Assembly (NCBI RefSeq): GCF_003205515.1
Contig: NZ_KZ826486.1
Coordinates: 124,001 to 188,000 of the forward strand
Length of the DNA stretch: 64,000 nt
Origin: Litorivita pollutaquae
GTDB taxonomy: Bacteria > Pseudomonadota > Alphaproteobacteria > Rhodobacterales > Rhodobacteraceae
Direction: 5' to 3'
Made by a program: the position numbers and the translations under genes. This document shows positions 3,854 through 22,883 of the stretch, piece by piece (the stretch's first letter is position 1; every line of letters begins with the position of its first letter). The notes under the pieces were generated by a model. That model had not been told where the DNA came from. It was given only the letters and a program-made list of their open reading frames with translations, and did not search any database.

Positions 3854-4594
3854 ATGAACTGGACAGACCGCCTCTCGCTTTTTGCCCCGATCGATTATTT
3901 CGCCGTCTGCGTGCTCTTTCTGGTGTGGATGTTGATCGGTTGGCGCATTGAACACCCATCCAGAACGCGCCCTTCTGTGTCCGTTCTCATGGCGCAATAC
4001 CGCCGCGAGTGGATGCGCCAATTGGTGACGCGCCAGCCGCGTATTTTCGATGCACAAACGCTTGCCACCCTGCGCGAAGGCACGTCGTTTTTCGCCTCGG
4101 CGGTGATGATTGCCATTGGCGGCGGTCTGGCGATAATTGGCAATTCCGAGCGCCTCGTCGGGGTCGCAAATGATCTCACGCTAGAAAGTGATCCGGCCAT
4201 TGTTTGGGAAATCAAGCTGATGGTAACGCTGGTGTTTCTTGCCAATGCATTTTTTAAATTCGTCTGGTCGCATCGCCTGTTCGGCTATTGTCTCGTGCTC
4301 ATGGCCGCCGTGCCCAATGATACGGCAGACGCCAATGCCTTGCCCCGCGCCGCCAAAGCCGCCGAGATCAATATCACCGCCGCGCGCGGGTTCAATCGCG
4401 GACTGCGGTCGATCTATTTTGCCCTTGGCACGACTGCTTGGCTGTTGGGTGCCTACGCCCTTCTGGCGGCGACGATCTTCACAGTTTTGGTGCTGTGGCG
4501 GCGTGAGTTCGCTTCGCATTCCCGCGCGGCCGTCATGGGCGACAGTGACGGCATGGGCCATGCTGCACATTCAAAAAACCACACTACATCGTGA
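3854..4594 (+). CDS. DUF599 family membrane protein
   Basis: Integral membrane protein of 246 residues matching what I know of DUF599: an N-terminal segment with DYFAV, about four transmembrane helices (near 15-32, 80-100, 118-150, 190-215) and a conserved central SRTRPS / NDTADANALPRAAK stretch. The function of the family is unknown. It stands alone, divergent from glcD, with a 36-base gap to the next plus-strand gene. The last 25 residues are His-, Ser- and Asp-rich and look disordered. Confidence 0.85.
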   Translation: MNWTDRLSLFAPIDYFAVCVLFLVWMLIGWRIEHPSRTRPSVSVLMAQYRREWMRQLVTRQPRIFDAQTLATLREGTSFFASAVMIAIGGGLAIIGNSERLVGVANDLTLESDPAIVWEIKLMVTLVFLANAFFKFVWSHRLFGYCLVLMAAVPNDTADANALPRAAKAAEINITAARGFNRGLRSIYFALGTTAWLLGAYALLAATIFTVLVLWRREFASHSRAAVMGDSDGMGHAAHSKNHTTS

Positions 4595-7125: not shown

Positions 7126-9906
7126 TCATTGCCCCAACCGGTCCAACAAGGCTGGCACATGGACCTGATCGGATTTGTAGTTTCCGGTCAGCACATACAT
7201 CACCAAATTCACTCCAAAACGATGCGCCAATTCCCGCTGCCGCTCGCCGGCAAACCCGCGCCCGACCGGATAAAGTGGCGCGCCATTTTCATCGATCGCC
7301 CATGCAGCGGCCCAATCATTGCCCCCGATCACCACCGGAGACACCCCGTCATTGAGATTGCGGAACGGCATGCCTTCGATTTTTTCGGCATCCGCAGGCG
7401 CCGCTTCGACCCATACTTCGCGGCTGGCCCAACGCCCCGGGAAATCTTGCAGCAAGTAAAACGCCCGGGTGAGAACATGATCGCCGGGCAAAGGCTCCAG
7501 CGGCGGAATGTCCAAAGGCGCGGCCAGTTGTTGCAATTTGCGACCTGTGGGGCTGGCGCTGCCATAGCGTGCGATATCGGCGTCACGCGTATCAAACACG
7601 ATCATCCCCCCCGCGCGCAAATACCGGTTGAGCCGCGCATAAGCTGCATCAGACGGCTGCGATTGCACCGACGTCACGGGCCAATAAAGGAGAGGGTAGA
7701 AGGCCAGCTCATCGGCCTCCAAATCCACCCCTCTGGGCGGTGCCGGCTCGACCGAGGTCCGAAAATACAAGGTTTCCGACAGGCCCAAAAGCCCCGCCCG
7801 CGCGGTGGCATCAATGCCTCTATCGCCGGTGATCACATGCGCGAGAACAATTTCAGCAGAGGCATCAATCGCTGCGATGTCATCTTGCGCGCGCGCCGCG
7901 TGTGGGCCACCCATCACCGCTGACACAGCCAGTGCACCAAGGATCACGGCGGCTTTGCCCATCCGGGGCCGCGCCGATATGAGCCGCCCAGACACAGCCA
8001 AAGAGGCCACCACATCCGCCGCCAAAGCCAATAGCGCCAGCGCCAGAAGCCACCCGCCCAAAGGTACCGCAGGTCGCCGCGCCAATCCGATCACGGTCGC
8101 CGTCGCGGGCCATGTCGCAGCCTCAAGCGCCGCGTCGCGCGGCAATACACTGCGGGCGATACGGCGATCCGCGCCTTCGTAAATTCCCGGATGTAAATCA
8201 CGCCCCAAGGGCGCCGCCATCAAATCCGCTCCGTCCACTCCGGCCAAGGTCGCGGCATTGCTGATCCGGCCAAAGGCATCCAGAACCTGCACCGGCTGCC
8301 ATGTGGTTCCGGCCAAAATTTCGGCTTCGGGCGCGGCCATCGCAGAGAGCACCGCGAGCCGTTCCAGCATTTCGACAAAAAGCCCCGTGAGCGGCAGGGT
8401 CGACCAATCGGCATTTGCCGTAACGTGGAACAAGATCACCTGCCCCGCGCCCAAAGATTTACGCGTCACCAAAGGCGTGCCATCGCCCAACGCCGCAATC
8501 ACGCGCGCCGCCAATTCGGGATCGGGCTGCGCCAGCACCTGCGCCGACACGGTCACGTCCTCGGGGATATCCAACCCCGCAAAGGGGCTATCGTCCGAAA
8601 AGGGTGCCAGAGTTTTCGGCTCGCCCCAACTCATCGCGCCGCCAACCGCCCGTCCACCTGCGCGCAACCGCACCGGCATCAAGGGATCTTCGGTGTCGCG
8701 GCTGACATCGCTGCTGGCCAAACGCGGCCCGGCAAAGCGCAGCAAAAGCCCCCCGCGCTCGACCCATGCGGTCAATTCCGCCGCCTCCGCCGCCGCCAGT
8801 GTCGCCACATCAGCCAGAATGATCACATCAGGATTAGCGGGCAGAACATCAACCAAATCGCCTTCGATCATATCGGCAGATGGCTCTAACGCGCGGTCAA
8901 GATAGTGGCGGGGTGACAATAATTCCATGCCTTCGCGGGCGCGCCCGCCGCCGATAATCGCGATCTCGCGGCGGTGCAGGCTGTCATCCGACAAGCCCAC
9001 GGCCCCCGCGCTGCGCTGCCCCTCGATCTCGAACCGAGTCACCCGGGCGCGCAGTTCGGACGGCAGGCTCAACTCCGCTTCCGCCTCCATCGCGCCACTC
9101 TCGAAAACCATGGGAACACGGGCCAAAATTTGTGGGTTGCCGGCAGGATCAAACCCGTGCACCGCCACGGAAACCTCACGCATACCCTCATCCCCACTGC
9201 GCAGCGCCCGTAAAGACACCCCCGCCCCATTAGGCACAGCAGGCGTGAGGCCAAGCACCTCGCCTGCGCTTTGATAAACGGTCACTTCGCCACGCGCCTC
9301 CAACGCAGCAAGGAGCACCGCGCGGCCCGCACGATCCAATCCGTCCGACATCCAGATGCTGTCGAAATCCTCATCCGGCAAGGCGGCAATCGCCGCCTCG
9401 GCATCGCCGGTTTGCGGCGTCCAGGGCAGGGGCACCATGCTGCCAATCCGGCGCTTGAGGTCCGCCGCAGGTGCAAACCGAACGCCCTGCGCCACATCCG
9501 TCAACCGCAGGTAGGCCGCGCGGCGCCCGTCGCGCGCCGCCTCGTCTAGAATGTCTTCAAGCAAGGCCGATTGCGCGGTCCAGTCTGCCGCGCTCGCCCA
9601 AGTGGCGTCCAACACCACCAACAAAGGCGCGCGACTTGGGGCGGCGTCCGGACTGCGTGGGTTCAATACCGGCCCCGCCAGCCCGATGATCATCGCCGCA
9701 ACCGCCAACATTCGTAAGAGCATCAACCACCACGGCGTGCGATCCGCGACGCTATCGCTATCGGTCAAGCCCAGCAAAAGCGCCACGCCCGGAAACCTGC
9801 GGCGCACCGGCGCGGGCGGCACCGCGCGCAAGATGATCCACAGGACCGGCAAAGCCACCAACGCGGCCAATAGCCACGGCGCAGAAAACCCCAATGCGCC
9901 GATCAT
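7126..9906 (-). CDS. BatA-like N-terminal / DUF4159 C-terminal membrane protein
   Basis: 926 residues. The N-terminus is an aerotolerance-regulator (BatA) type domain with two transmembrane helices (about 7-25 and 58-78) followed by a vWA-like region (LLVVLDATWASAADW). Another membrane segment lies near 650-670, and an AQA-type processing motif is followed by the C-terminal DUF4159 domain (about 700-926), which resembles a degenerate amidotransferase. The start overlaps the DUF58 stop as ATGA. Family knowledge: these genes form MoxR-associated envelope operons, probably a chaperone-like assembly at the membrane. Function here is inferred from context only. Confidence 0.88.
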   Translation of the reverse strand: MIGALGFSAPWLLAALVALPVLWIILRAVPPAPVRRRFPGVALLLGLTDSDSVADRTPWWLMLLRMLAVAAMIIGLAGPVLNPRSPDAAPSRAPLLVVLDATWASAADWTAQSALLEDILDEAARDGRRAAYLRLTDVAQGVRFAPAADLKRRIGSMVPLPWTPQTGDAEAAIAALPDEDFDSIWMSDGLDRAGRAVLLAALEARGEVTVYQSAGEVLGLTPAVPNGAGVSLRALRSGDEGMREVSVAVHGFDPAGNPQILARVPMVFESGAMEAEAELSLPSELRARVTRFEIEGQRSAGAVGLSDDSLHRREIAIIGGGRAREGMELLSPRHYLDRALEPSADMIEGDLVDVLPANPDVIILADVATLAAAEAAELTAWVERGGLLLRFAGPRLASSDVSRDTEDPLMPVRLRAGGRAVGGAMSWGEPKTLAPFSDDSPFAGLDIPEDVTVSAQVLAQPDPELAARVIAALGDGTPLVTRKSLGAGQVILFHVTANADWSTLPLTGLFVEMLERLAVLSAMAAPEAEILAGTTWQPVQVLDAFGRISNAATLAGVDGADLMAAPLGRDLHPGIYEGADRRIARSVLPRDAALEAATWPATATVIGLARRPAVPLGGWLLALALLALAADVVASLAVSGRLISARPRMGKAAVILGALAVSAVMGGPHAARAQDDIAAIDASAEIVLAHVITGDRGIDATARAGLLGLSETLYFRTSVEPAPPRGVDLEADELAFYPLLYWPVTSVQSQPSDAAYARLNRYLRAGGMIVFDTRDADIARYGSASPTGRKLQQLAAPLDIPPLEPLPGDHVLTRAFYLLQDFPGRWASREVWVEAAPADAEKIEGMPFRNLNDGVSPVVIGGNDWAAAWAIDENGAPLYPVGRGFAGERQRELAHRFGVNLVMYVLTGNYKSDQVHVPALLDRLGQ

Positions 9907-19014: not shown

Positions 19015-20592
19015 TTAGTCAGTAAACAAATGTGGCGTTTGAGCGATAGCATGGGCTTTGTCCGGCGCGATGGCAAGGAAATCAGCCAGCGGTTTGGTAT
19101 TTTCTTCCGGGCTGGCCGTTTGCCGGATACGGTACAAATATTCGAACCCTGCCGCGCGGATATGATCGCGTTCATAGATCATATCATTGCGGATGGTCGG
19201 CAACAGCCGATCCAGCGTCTCGGGCGAGGTTTGCTCGCCTGCCAATCCAACCCGTTTGGCATGGCCAACCAGATAATCGTCATCAAACACGCATTCGACA
19301 TCCAAAATCCGCGTGGCCGAACGGTCGGCATTGAAATCCTGCATCAACTCGACGTTGGACGGATCGAGGCAGATGATAAGTTGATCCGTATCATAGTAAT
19401 CAAACAACATCCGCATCAGGGCCCGGCGATGCCGGGTGCGCTTGCCCAAGGTGGATTGTATACCGCCCAAATCCGGTAGCTCGGTGCTTTCTTCATTAAA
19501 GAGATATTCAATCGCCGGCACATTGGTCACCTGCCGGATTCCACTCAACAACCGTTTGGCCACATGCCATTTCTTGCACACCACGATCATCAACTCGCGT
19601 TCGCGGCCAAAGGTGCTTTCGGTCTCCCAAAACCGTGTGGCAAAGCGCCGCCCGATACGGCCGCGCCCGGTGAGAAATTTAAACAGGCTGCGCCCTTCGT
19701 TGGAGACTTTGAACTCAACGCCTTCGGTTGCGTAAAGCCGCCCGAGGCGCCGCTTCAATTCATCAGCTTCGGCGCTGATCTTGCGGGCAAAGAGGAAATC
19801 CTGACCGAGTAACAGGTCATAGTGATCATTATAAAACGTCACCGGCATGCCATAATCGGTAAACATCAAGAACGTCAGCGTGCGATTTTCAATCTCGTTT
19901 TCCGGTACCAGATGGCGCACCAAGGTTTGGAAAAACGTTTCGTCGGGAATCCAGGTGGTGCGAAAGAACCGCATGACATCGCGGCGCTGTTTGGTGAATT
20001 CGAGGATCCACTCGATCGTCCGCCGGCGTAGGCACCACCATTGGCTGCCGATCATCATTTGCAAATCATGCGGCACATCGCGTTTGAGGCCAAGCCGCCG
20101 CTGCACATTCATAGAGGTATAGAACAATCGTTTATGCATGCGTTCATTGAAAAAATGACGGTAGGTCAGCCGCTCTTCTTTGATGCCGGTTTTGATCCAA
20201 TCACTGTCGAAATAATCAACGCTCTCGATGTAATCGCAGTCACGCCTGTCGAGGAATTCATGCACGTATTCCGCCGACTTAATTGCCATACAATCGCCCG
20301 ACAGCATATAAAAATTCGTGGCGCGCGGAAAGGCGTCGACCGCGGCCTCAACGGCATAAAGGGTCGCCTGTACAAGGCTCCATTCCCCCCATCCGCATTT
20401 GATCCGTGTACGCGCAAAGGTCACATTGGGGTTGTCGCCCAAAGCATCGCGAATTTTTTGGAAATCTTCGGGTTTGGCGCGAGCGTCAAAATGGATCGAC
20501 ATCACATCGCCCACCGCAGTCAACCGCTCCGCCTGCTTGATAATGGCGTCGGGATCCTTGTGACACAAAAGAATGAAGGCGATTTTTGCCAT
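19015..20592 (-). CDS. core-2/I-branching-type glycosyltransferase with C-terminal DUF5927-like domain
   Basis: 525 residues. Residues 1-240 match the Branch (GT14, beta-1,6-N-acetylglucosaminyltransferase / xylosyltransferase) fold: AFILLCHKDPDAI at the start, KCGWGEWSLVQATL, FYMLSGDCMAIK, then a GSQWWCL motif and a PDETFFQTL segment. The remaining 280 residues resemble the rhodobacterial DUF5927 extension, of unknown role. No signal peptide. Start at ATG 20592; the upstream in-frame TTG is less likely. Divergent from a sulfotransferase gene, a pairing that suggests a sulfated surface glycan; the acceptor is unknown. Confidence 0.85.
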   Translation of the reverse strand: MAKIAFILLCHKDPDAIIKQAERLTAVGDVMSIHFDARAKPEDFQKIRDALGDNPNVTFARTRIKCGWGEWSLVQATLYAVEAAVDAFPRATNFYMLSGDCMAIKSAEYVHEFLDRRDCDYIESVDYFDSDWIKTGIKEERLTYRHFFNERMHKRLFYTSMNVQRRLGLKRDVPHDLQMMIGSQWWCLRRRTIEWILEFTKQRRDVMRFFRTTWIPDETFFQTLVRHLVPENEIENRTLTFLMFTDYGMPVTFYNDHYDLLLGQDFLFARKISAEADELKRRLGRLYATEGVEFKVSNEGRSLFKFLTGRGRIGRRFATRFWETESTFGRERELMIVVCKKWHVAKRLLSGIRQVTNVPAIEYLFNEESTELPDLGGIQSTLGKRTRHRRALMRMLFDYYDTDQLIICLDPSNVELMQDFNADRSATRILDVECVFDDDYLVGHAKRVGLAGEQTSPETLDRLLPTIRNDMIYERDHIRAAGFEYLYRIRQTASPEENTKPLADFLAIAPDKAHAIAQTPHLFTD

Positions 20593-20740
20593 ACCGGAAA
20601 CCAATAGCCTCTATTTACGCAGATTGTTTACCTTGATAGAGGTGAACAAGCGTTGAATAAACCGTAATTCTCTGCTTTTTTAGTGAGATAGTAACTGCGG
20701 TCGCGGAAAAAAGCCGCAGAGCGATTGGAGACAGCACTTT

Positions 20741-21559
20741 ATGGGTTTTCCCGGAACATGGATGACGGAGAGCGAAAGCGTTGTCTATCGCGTGGTGCCG
20801 AAATGCGCTTGCTCGACCATTGGGCAAATCATGCATTACTCCGATCACGGCCGGTTTTTCGACGGCGATATTCATGACGCCCAAGAAGGGTTGCATAAAT
20901 GGGCGCTGGAGCAAAGCCAGCCAAAGATCGAAGCGAATGTAACCGCACATAAATCCTATGCCTTCACCTGTGTGCGCAATCCGTACACGCGCATCTTGTC
21001 GTCCTTTTTCGACAAGATTTGCGGGATTCAACGCAACGGCAAACGCTACCGTGGGAATCTGGTGCCGCTCTTGATCCAAAAATACGGGATCGACGTGGGT
21101 GGGCCGGACGGTCAGGACGAGTTTGACCAGATCCAAAGCTTTCGCCGGTTTTTGCTGTTCGCCCGCGATAGCATCCGGTGGCGCCGCCCGATGGAGCCCG
21201 ACATTCATTGGTCGGCCATGGCGGGGCATATCTCGACCTTTATTATCAATGGCGGTCACTACGATAAAATATTCTGGACCGAGCGCTTTAACGACGGGAT
21301 GCAAGACGTTCTCGATGCGATCGAAACACCCCATGCCGTCGACCTAGAAAACATTCCGCGGTTCAACGAAAGCGAAGGCCACGGGCCAAAACGCGCCCAT
21401 CCGGTCGAGGACTATTTTGACGATCTGTCGATGCATTTGGTCTATGAAATCTACAAGAAAGACTTCTTGCTGTTTCAATATGATGCAGAAGATCCGTCAA
21501 ACAAAATGCCGGTGGGCGAGATCGACCTCGATGAGGTGCATGCCAAGCTCGGAGACTGA
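20741..21559 (+). CDS. sulfotransferase family 2 protein
   Basis: 272 residues with the PAPS-binding motifs of the Sulfotransfer_2 family: the 5'-phosphosulfate loop VPKCACSTIG (Lys21 to Ser25) and the 3'-phosphate motif VRNPYTRILSSFF (Arg79, Ser87). Such enzymes move sulfate from PAPS onto carbohydrate hydroxyls. GGAG lies 10 bases before the ATG. It shares a divergent promoter region with the GT14-like gene, so a joint role in making a sulfated polysaccharide is likely but inferred. Confidence 0.85.
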   Translation: MGFPGTWMTESESVVYRVVPKCACSTIGQIMHYSDHGRFFDGDIHDAQEGLHKWALEQSQPKIEANVTAHKSYAFTCVRNPYTRILSSFFDKICGIQRNGKRYRGNLVPLLIQKYGIDVGGPDGQDEFDQIQSFRRFLLFARDSIRWRRPMEPDIHWSAMAGHISTFIINGGHYDKIFWTERFNDGMQDVLDAIETPHAVDLENIPRFNESEGHGPKRAHPVEDYFDDLSMHLVYEIYKKDFLLFQYDAEDPSNKMPVGEIDLDEVHAKLGD

Positions 21560-21678
21560 GCGGCACGGCTCCTATGGCCGTCACCTTCGGCAAAGCGCCC
21601 CCGCAAGTTTAGGTGATTTTTCTGCATTCCGGTAACGCGCTGTTAATGCTGGCTCCGCTACATACGACATAGGGAACA

Positions 21679-21870
21679 GGCGGAAGCGCCGATGACCCTG
21701 CAAGGCAGATCCTTCACGGGACTGCCTTGGCCCTCCAGAAGACTGCACGTGCGCAGAATGCCGCGTGGTGCCATTGCGCAAAATGCCTATGGCAAAATGA
21801 TACGGGAAACCCGTATCTTTACAAATCAAATGGCGCGGGGCGAGGCGGAAAGCCTTTCCCCGCGTTTTTT
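21679..21870 (+). ncRNA. candidate structured small RNA with Rho-independent terminator
   Basis: Within a 340-base gap the plus strand contains a run of hairpins: GGCG/CGCC (21679-21690); CAAGGCAG/CTGCCTTG with an inner TCC/GGA (21701-21729); TGCGC-AATG/CATT-GCGCA with an AG bulge (21750-21780); GATACGGG-AAA-CCCGTATC (21799-21817). The run ends in a G+C-rich terminator followed by six T (21834-21870). The plus-strand reading frame across it continues past the terminator and resembles no protein I know. I could not match it to 6S, SRP, RNase P or tmRNA. The 5' end is a guess. It could instead be a structured 3' UTR of the sulfotransferase mRNA. Confidence 0.55.
21834..21870 (+). terminator. 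intrinsic terminator of the candidate small RNA
   Basis: CGCGGGG (21834-21840) pairs with CCCCGCG (21858-21864); an inner AGGC/GCCT stem closes the loop, and TTTTTT follows at 21865-21870. The T run is only on the plus strand, so it acts on plus-strand transcripts, 30 bases before the convergent adenosine kinase stop. Confidence 0.8.
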
Positions 21871-21899
21871 GTGCGATATCAGCTGGGTCGCATGTGCAA

Positions 21900-22883
21900 T
21901 TAAGACAACCCGGCGGTGCGGAACAACGCCTTGAGATCGGCCTCAGGCCGCGCGCCATAATGGCCGATGACTTCCTGCGCCGCGACGCATCCCATCCGGC
22001 CCGACACCTCTAGCGATTGATCTGTGGCCAGACCATAAAGAAAACCGGCGGCGAATTGATCGCCCGCGCCGGTGGCATCAACCACTTTGACCGGGGTGAC
22101 CGGCACCGTGGCTTCCTCGTCGCCGCGCACCAACACCACATCGGACCCGCCACGCGTGCACACAACAAGACCCGCCTCGCGCGCCGCCTGTTCAAGCGCC
22201 GAGGAGAGATCGGTTTGATAAAGCGATTCCCATTCGTGCTCATTGCCGATGACATAATCGAGATCTTTGACCAAACGCCGGAAATCATCGCGGTGACGAT
22301 CGACGCAAAACGGATCAGAGAGAGAAATCCCCGCCATGCCGCCGCCGGTTTTGCACGCCTTGGCAGCCGCCTCAAACGCGGTCTTGCCCTTGTCTTTATC
22401 GTAAAGATATCCCTCAAGGAACAGCAGCGCCGCCGCTCCGGCAACTTCATCGGAAACGTCGTCGGGGCCAAGGTCTGCGGAAATGCCGAGATAGGTGTTC
22501 ATAGATCTCTCGCCATCGGGCGAGACAAAGATCATCGAGCGCGAGGTTGGCAAATCGCCGCCCTGCACCGGCGGGTTGACGAAATCCGTGCCGCCTTTGG
22601 CCATTTCATCGGCGTAAAACCGGCCCAGCGCATCATCGTGGACGCGCCCGATGAACCCCGTGGTCAGACCCAGATTACCCAACCCTGCCAGCGTATTGGC
22701 GACCGAACCGCCGGGCGCCTGCACCCGTTCTTTCATGGCGTCATAGAGCATCTCGCCACGCGCCTTTTCGATCAGCGTCATGATGCCCTTTTCAATCCCC
22801 ATCAGATCGAGAAAGCTATCGTCTGCGGGGCTGATCACATCGACAACCGCATTCCCGATTCCGACGACTTGGTATTTATTCAT
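21900..22883 (-). CDS. adenosine kinase, PfkB family
   Basis: 327-residue ribokinase-like enzyme that phosphorylates adenosine (or a related nucleoside) in purine salvage. PfkB signatures: the GGSVANTLAGLGNLG motif near 58-72 and the C-terminal DATGAGDQFAAGFLYG motif with the catalytic Asp near 281. The N-terminal GIGNAVVDVIS and substrate-lid region match alphaproteobacterial adenosine kinases. Its start overlaps the nth stop (ATGA), so it is the second gene of an nth-adk operon. Confidence 0.9.
   Translation of the reverse strand: MNKYQVVGIGNAVVDVISPADDSFLDLMGIEKGIMTLIEKARGEMLYDAMKERVQAPGGSVANTLAGLGNLGLTTGFIGRVHDDALGRFYADEMAKGGTDFVNPPVQGGDLPTSRSMIFVSPDGERSMNTYLGISADLGPDDVSDEVAGAAALLFLEGYLYDKDKGKTAFEAAAKACKTGGGMAGISLSDPFCVDRHRDDFRRLVKDLDYVIGNEHEWESLYQTDLSSALEQAAREAGLVVCTRGGSDVVLVRGDEEATVPVTPVKVVDATGAGDQFAAGFLYGLATDQSLEVSGRMGCVAAQEVIGHYGARPEADLKALFRTAGLS

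Follow-up and report, generated by a model that had tools for sequence, protein, structure and literature searches.

Does the gap downstream of a sulfotransferase gene contain an independent small RNA gene, or is it only the structured end of an mRNA? The window analyzed here is the whole 64,000-nucleotide stretch of DNA to which this gap belongs. The original prediction proposed a candidate new structured sRNA in the gap and left the choice between an sRNA and a 3' UTR undecided. With moderate confidence, we favor the reading that 21671-21870 (plus strand) is an independent, CtrA-activated structured sRNA gene. It would be a divergent "terminator-type" member of an RNA family of Rhodobacteraceae. 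Its transcription, CtrA activation, 3' end, and regulatory role are inferred.

The gap and its predicted fold

The intergenic gap (21560-21899) contained 340 bases and was structured, as predicted. The stretch 21660-21880 folds to -97.9 kcal/mol, against a mean of -71.2 for 200 dinucleotide shuffles (z = -5.83), none of which folded as well. We also folded 320 tiles of 200 nt from both strands of the window (median, -69.4). The plus strand of 21671-21870 (-91.2) was matched or beaten by 8 of these tiles and the minus strand (-85.5) by 28. The features of the locus are given in Table 1.

The 8-base perfect stems CAAGGCAG/CTGCCTTG and GATACGGG/CCCGTATC of the original prediction held and are present where it placed them. 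Its bulged stem TGCGC-AATG/CATT-GCGCA held only in part; the letters are present, but the minimum-energy fold favors two separate hairpins (21746-21767 and 21769-21794). Its plus-strand terminator with six T held from the letters and the fold, with CCCCGCG-TTTTTT at 21858-21870. A consensus scan of the gap listed neither a terminator nor a plus-strand sigma70 promoter. It listed one promoter-like site, on the minus strand. The scan seemingly does not allow a bulged stem, which may be how it missed the terminator.

The claim that no convincing protein is encoded also held. The 80-aa and 125-aa open reading frames (ORFs) of the gap had no Pfam match. The absence of any likeness to familiar housekeeping RNAs held as well, as nothing in the whole window reached an Rfam gathering threshold. 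Below threshold, the gap had only two chance-level matches (E 3.2 and E 7.8). The first was isrK (RF01394), which likewise has a terminator hairpin after a short stem. It scored 12.1 bits against a gathering threshold of 50, and its E value is that of chance.

Divergent from the sulfotransferase gene is a Core-2/I-branching glycosyltransferase fused to DUF5928 (5e-132; 19015-20604, minus strand). This fusion and the sulfotransferase resemble what may be a cell-surface polysaccharide pair.

Table 1. Features of the gap and its borders (window coordinates)
Feature	Position	Strand	Remarks
Sulfotransferase ORF	20741-21559	+	Borders gap upstream; Sulfotransfer_2, 3e-36
Degenerate left-flank motif CAAG-TTTAG	21604-21612	+	Family form, NNNN-TATTT
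CtrA-type box GTAA-N7-TTAA, GTAACGCGCTGTTAA	21632-21646	+	7/8 letters; -44 from core; over -35 region
TACATA, -10-like	21659-21664	+	A at both -16 and -12
P1 hairpin and predicted 5' end	21671-21699	+	AGGGA-ACA-GGCG-GAAG-CGCC-GAUG-ACCCU; conserved family module
P2 of window, CAAGGCAG/CTGCCTTG	21701-21708/21722-21729	+	Minimum-energy fold; 4 more pairs extend stem
Two predicted hairpins	21746-21767, 21769-21794	+	Minimum-energy fold
8-bp hairpin GATACGGG-aaa-CCCGTATC	21799-21806/21810-21817	+	Sequence and fold
Intrinsic terminator	21835-21870	+	Bulged G+C-rich stem 21835-21863, then T6 21865-21870
PfkB kinase	21900-22883	-	Convergent neighbor downstream of gap

A conserved 5' hairpin and its RNA family

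DNA homology searches with the whole gap in 60 relatives retrieved nothing beyond the gap itself and three short matches. The informative one was a 35-base 5' piece of the structure, in genome G015. With 2 mismatches at most, the pattern ACAGGCGGNAGCGCCGATGACC was present in 159 of 295 genomes of the bacterial family. Chance origin of the 35-base piece was rejected; the backward pattern gave at least 2 matches in the 295 genomes. Variants of ACAGGCGGNAGCGCCGATGACC revealed a covarying hairpin, P1. A relaxed pattern matched at least 119 stretches in genome contigs and 35 in viral contigs. The named matches with the hairpin were mostly from Rhodobacteraceae and relatives. At least 4 of 5 outer-stem pairs plus the inner pair were present in 120/143 non-viral matches versus 2/33 viral ones. 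The 5' side of the outer stem mostly lies outside the search pattern.

The covariance model R1 was built from 119 members, with the window excluded. Its input was the 176 distinct pattern matches minus 33 viral ones and minus 23 non-viral ones that failed pairing. This filter (4 outer pairs plus the inner pair) inflates the pairing percentage of the R1 alignment. The R1 consensus is a 29-nt module, NCGGU-ACA-GGCN-NNNN-NGCC-GAUG-ACCGN. R1 matched the window at 21670-21707 with 39.0 bits (E 6.8e-7). It also retrieved a second, stronger copy from the window's genome (48.8 bits), and the next match there had 19.5 bits (E 0.18).

The model-found set contained 49 matches from 21 of 41 genomes. It is less biased by the filter, but its alignment was fitted to R1, and one row (L247) is dubious. 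In this set, 97.4% of P1 cells were paired versus 89.1% after shuffling. There were 6 P1 pairs with double changes versus 2.5 shuffled, and none of 500 shuffles scored as high. The window alone among the aligned rows has exchanged C-G for G-C in the outer stem, a double change. Both sides of its outer stem are altered relative to the family consensus, and there is an A-A mismatch at the top. The 5' module of the structure is a divergent member of an RNA family with covarying stems.

The candidate new structured sRNA of the original prediction held to this extent; it is Rfam-negative and its 5' hairpin belongs to a covarying family, with transcription inferred. That prediction overlooked the feature that tells the most, the hairpin at 21671-21699 with which the RNA begins. 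The stems it highlighted, save for P2 (21701-21729), are not the conserved ones. It had set conservation in relatives as a check. The whole gap is not conserved; the 5' 29-nt module of the structure is conserved and covarying. The hairpins at 21746-21794 and 21799-21817 had no counterpart in the five loci compared.

Helix P2, loop-tail pairing, and the left flank

In a typical member, the hairpin P1 is followed by the long helix P2, and the P1 loop pairs with a 3' tail. In P2, an A/G-rich arm after P1 pairs with a U/C-rich arm. The median energy of P2 in 131 members was -16.2 kcal for a member's own arms versus -7.7 for swapped arms. The window's P2 lies directly 3' of P1, where the family has the helix CAAGGAGAAG/CUUCUUCUUG.

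Loop, tail, and flank counts rest on 161 distinct members with 230 bases downstream, drawn from 120 + 48 rows. The motif AARTA is found just 3' of P2 in 132 of the 161, with AAATA 76-164 bases after the core start. The three bases after AAATA pair with loop positions 2-4 in 124/132 members (permuted mean, 51; maximum, 65). The same pairing was found in 33/34 of the model-found set, against 12 permuted (maximum, 21). Loop/tail examples include GGAG/CTCC, GAGG/CCTC, GGCG/CGCC, GCGG/CCGC, and GACA/TGTC. Genomes G003, G006, and G016 contain copies that differ in loop, and each copy fits its own tail where a tail exists. Because copies with different loops within one genome match their own tails, the pairing acts in cis. 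Loop and tail covary; this is shown, as are the stems and the family membership.

The window lacks the tail, with no AARTA in +44..+224. It is one of 29/161 members without it. Besides the box, the window copy retains P1 and a short P2, and it closes with a terminator of its own.

The left flank also matches the loop. Loop positions 2-4 recur as the three bases directly 5' of an upstream TATTT in 123/158 members (40 permuted; maximum, 55), in 31/42 of the model-found set (11 permuted; maximum, 20), and in 18/29 tail-less members (8 permuted; maximum, 14). The match fails in some, e.g., L213, L297, and L328. Most members contain the arms NNNN-TATTT ... AAATA-NNNN, which in the window are degenerate or missing. 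Nearly all left-motif matches in the family are at -47 to -82, and the window's offset of -68 from the core falls inside this range. The AAG of its left motif equals loop positions 2-4 of GAAG. The motif is weak, lacks an intact TAYTT, and was scored as no match. Members often combine a left flank of one type with a right flank of another.

Plasmid copies had a left match in 11/20 (4.6 permuted; maximum, 9), with four copies near-identical, and a tail match in 5/7 (2.6 permuted; maximum, 5). The 14 copies from other families were not above permutation for the left match (3 versus 2.4; maximum, 3) or for the tail match (6/9 versus 4.6; maximum, 6).

We rejected NNNN-TATTT..CAAGAAGAAG as a general gene-end signal. 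Across four versions, 83/102 occurrences were within 300 bases of a core-like site, where 0.30 would be expected by length. The core-bearing loci were preselected, and the count says little about genome-wide frequency. Solitary palindromes without an RNA also exist, e.g., at L108 (~7903-7913, minus strand). The one at L108 reads GGAGTATTT..CAAGAAGAAG-GGGG-CTTCTTCTTG..AAAA, with arms as in RNA-bearing elements. It could be a bidirectional terminator.

Family loops are purine-rich (GGGA, GGAG, GAGG; GAAG in the window). Most carry GGA, and the RNA might then be a decoy for CsrA/RsmA. This reading is all but excluded. The CsrA family PF02599 was absent from 25/25 genomes of the bacterial family searched, including the window's own. 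The control genomes E. coli, B. subtilis, and T. maritima all matched PF02599. Because CsrA is absent there, the decoy is refuted for the window's genome as far as Pfam shows.

The module could also be a short translated ORF, with the P1 loop (GGAG, GGGA) resembling a Shine-Dalgarno site and the AUG following in P1. The AUG is retained in nearly all members, and its spacing from the loop is suitable. However, the AUG letters were fixed by the search pattern, so their invariance there is a selection effect. The first stop after the AUG is scattered (quartiles, 25 and 91 codons), and some copies encode merely MTAQ or MTVKG. In some (L328 and L245), the AUG is replaced by GUG or UUG. The window's 80-aa frame has no Pfam match. 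We consider this reading very unlikely.

Predicted promoter and CtrA-type box

Column counts in 120 members gave T(A/T)A(A/C)(C/G) at -43..-39 and T(A/T)A(A/C)C at -32..-28. A is present at -16 in 82/120, T at -12 in 85/120, and a purine at -5 in 119/120. The pattern TTAA-N7-TTAA (at least 6/8 letters) was found at offset -44 in 53 members and at -43 in 57, against 0.15 per offset elsewhere. By spacer, pattern-found members contained the box with N7 in 104/120, with N6 in 58/120, and with N8 in 38/120. In the model-found set, from which L247 was omitted here, 44/48 members had at least 6/8 letters, the window among them. Three had all 8 letters. The fixed spacing of this box is shown.

TTAA-N7-TTAA is the recognition motif of CtrA, in these bacteria a regulator of gene transfer, motility, and the cell cycle. 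The window's genome encodes CtrA, with 78% identity to the Caulobacter sequence. The box is placed like that of an activator at -35, and transcription is predicted to begin with the first base of P1 (-5). CtrA activation of family members in Rhodobacteraceae is likely; it is inferred without transcript data. The window's -10-like site lacks the usual T at -12.

The box was present in 3/20 plasmid copies and in 0/14 copies from other families (one not assessable). Because these copies mostly lack the box, CtrA control appears to be a Rhodobacteraceae trait added to an older RNA. The second copy of the window's genome has 5/8 letters.

The region may instead be merely where the sulfotransferase mRNA ends, with a structured 3' UTR and a terminator. 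The gap does follow a same-strand gene, and the terminator is on that strand. Against this, family members occur in all four neighbor orientations. The box just upstream of P1 in 44/48 members would also be needless for a 3' UTR. We consider the 3' UTR unlikely. On the choice that the original prediction left open, an independent gene is favored over a 3' UTR fragment because the conserved promoter box sets the 5' end at about 21671. The 5' end near 21670 given earlier is close to this predicted one.

Genomic setting and probable ancestry of the window copy

The flanking ORFs of 109 members were evenly distributed over the four orientations (30/30/27/22). ORF calling was crude (at least 100 aa), and some shadow frames are included. 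A leader or riboswitch was rejected on this even neighbor orientation. At least 15 loci have an acyl-CoA dehydrogenase gene downstream, on the opposite strand, and at least 4 have an acyl-CoA synthetase-like gene as a neighbor (both by motif check). Single-linkage neighbor clusters gave 43 dehydrogenase and 10 synthetase loci. They mix shadow frames, and we prefer the smaller counts.

The RNA might also be a cis attenuator, in which the left arm competes with P1/P2 for the right arm, or an antisense RNA to a convergent mRNA. The left motif and the loop both match the tail, and at least 15 copies face the opposite-strand dehydrogenase gene. However, by the same crude ORF calling, the left ORF points away in 52/109 members and the right ORF is on the same strand in 49/109. 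The window copy has no right arm. Both versions are very unlikely.

A sulfotransferase gene is also upstream of the RNA in L017, L148, and L322, and pfkB is downstream of it in L017, L043, and L158. A gene tied to the pfkB locus was rejected, as the RNA is absent beside pfkB in the loci of 29 relatives, out of 98 other pfkB-matching genomes.

The copy at L148 (Salipiger sp. IMCC34102) contains the window's loop GAAG, a tail AAATA-CTTC, and a long P2. Because the locus is shared and L148 has loop GAAG with tail CTTC, the window copy likely descends from a tail-type RNA. It would have lost the tail and gained the other hairpins and the U6 terminator. It may also be decaying.

The second copy in the window's genome was retrieved at L197 (1501-1538, minus strand; G000:C1:530730-530767). 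It is more canonical and terminator-type, and it lies between what we take to be aspS and carB (named from ORFs). It contains an intact left motif, GGGGATATTT, and lacks a clear CtrA box.

Proposed mode of action

Under the independent-gene reading, phosphorylated CtrA would most likely bind the box at 21632-21646 and activate transcription from about 21671. The transcript would open with the 29-nt P1 hairpin, whose ACA/GAUG internal loop is conserved. The long P2 would follow in typical members, and the 3' tail AAAUA-NNN would then pair with the P1 loop and close the RNA. This closure would be expected to shield both ends and leave the copy-specific interior of P2 exposed. The pairing is inferred to hold the 3' end against P1, with an A-rich strand crossing P1 beside the ACA/GAUG loop. 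In the window, the tail is gone and the bulged G+C-rich terminator would end the RNA, so the GAAG loop would be free. The window RNA most likely would act in trans as a regulator, with P1 as the family recognition site and the copy-specific part picking targets. This role is inferred.

The family resembles CcnA of Caulobacter crescentus, an alphaproteobacterial structured noncoding RNA with a link to the CtrA circuit and an apical loop (PMC8959179). The apical loop of CcnA is its interaction site. This loop, Loop A, has the sequence CCCC, with which it binds GGGG in the ctrA and gcrA leaders (PMC8959179). No such C-rich loop is present here, where the window loop is GAAG and family loops are purine-rich. 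Unlike CcnA, typical family loops match their own tail, and the family is multi-copy and plasmid-borne. EcpR1 of Sinorhizobium is likewise linked to alphaproteobacterial cell-cycle control, as a trans-sRNA (PMC4414408).

HRC-8-4 and uORFC-8-2 are also RNA motifs of Rhodobacterales from comparative genomics. They are tied to ccoP/ccoG and cysS, whereas the P1 family is tied to no single gene (PMC8632094). The SAM/SAH riboswitch (RF01727) is another Rhodobacterales RNA motif, but it is located upstream of metK (PMC2864571). Rfam gave no match at its gathering thresholds for 12 member loci, and none up to E 0.5 for 5 plasmid loci. The P1 module was not found as a named family in Rfam 15 or in the open-access literature searched. 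By undescribed we mean unnamed as a family; members may hide in the sRNA tables of Ruegeria (PMC4809877) and Paracoccus (PMC5107571). A family that is widespread, plasmid-borne, absent from Rfam, and linked by its sequence to CtrA is a concrete and easily tested gap.

Spread across genomes, plasmids, and viral contigs

R1 matched 230/295 genomes of the bacterial family, with 1 to 7 copies each, and the RNA occurs in most of the genera sampled there. At class level it matched 14/289 genomes, 4 of them from the family. Three of the ten class genomes outside the family were weak matches (E 1.9e-4 or worse). At phylum level it matched 27/398 genomes, 26 of them from the family.

Plasmid records with the module numbered 11 and 22 from two queries, partly overlapping. 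All 20 plasmid loci opened matched R1 (E 2.1e-7 or better). The hosts include Paracoccus, Cereibacter, Phaeobacter, Sulfitobacter, Mesorhizobium, Shinella, Rhizobium, Azospirillum, Thiothrix, Nitrosococcus, and Legionella. Four of the 20 records list no gene around the match, leaving 16. Of these, 7 have repA or trfA within about 1 kb, and 5 have toxin-antitoxin genes. The Legionella anisa copy (L349) contains P1, a P2 of GACGTGAT/ATCACGTC, and a matching tail.

The rival reading with the most weight gives the palindromic flanks a role at the DNA level. The family would then be first of all a non-autonomous unit with palindromic borders, either mobile or made of structured DNA (MITE-like, single-strand hairpin, or RNA-guided), whose movement the RNA would serve or merely accompany. 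In its favor, loop positions 2-4 match both the left flank and the tail, so that both flanks carry 5'-AAATA-NNN, inverted. The copies in G003, G006, and G016 with their different loops and matching tails also fit, as do the plasmid copies in alpha- and gammaproteobacteria. Palindromes with the same arms and no RNA exist. Against it, some contexts common to many loci (e.g., the dehydrogenase gene, at least 15) favor vertical inheritance, and the fixed-spacing promoter box requires a transcribed product. A transposase gene begins within 150 bases of the RNA in one case, and no transposase recurs beside the copies in the 16 annotated plasmid stretches. The flank types are also often mixed. On balance we consider a primary DNA element unlikely.

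A bolder reading, also unlikely, is that the RNA loop reads its own flanks, with left motif, loop, and tail sharing a changeable 3- to 4-nt cis code. If true, the RNA would supply recognition in an RNA-guided or hairpin-based DNA process by which palindromic elements and plasmids are maintained, recombine, or spread, and in Rhodobacteraceae it would have come under CtrA control. An ordinary trans-acting sRNA would explain neither the occurrence on plasmids in distantly related proteobacteria nor the three-way agreement of left flank, loop, and tail.

A phage origin was rejected; the phage collection searched gave no match. One IMG/VR viral contig (L189; 2506-2535, plus strand) contains a convincing P1 with 37.8 bits.

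Nearly identical terminator-type copies (L334, L342, L343, and L344) were retrieved from plasmids of Phaeobacter, Paracoccus, and Sulfitobacter. Their left motif, GGGATATTT, is just about 42 bases before the core. They were counted separately in the plasmid box and loop tallies. In the rhizobial plasmid copies L345, L346, L350, and L351 (~2501-2600) and L335 (~4001-4100), the P1 AUG opens MTVKG-stop, five codons. Four of the five adjoin replication genes; for L351 there is no gene table. Outside the family, two alphaproteobacteria with small genomes (L252/L257 and L240/L250/L256) each contain two to three similar copies, which look like duplicates.
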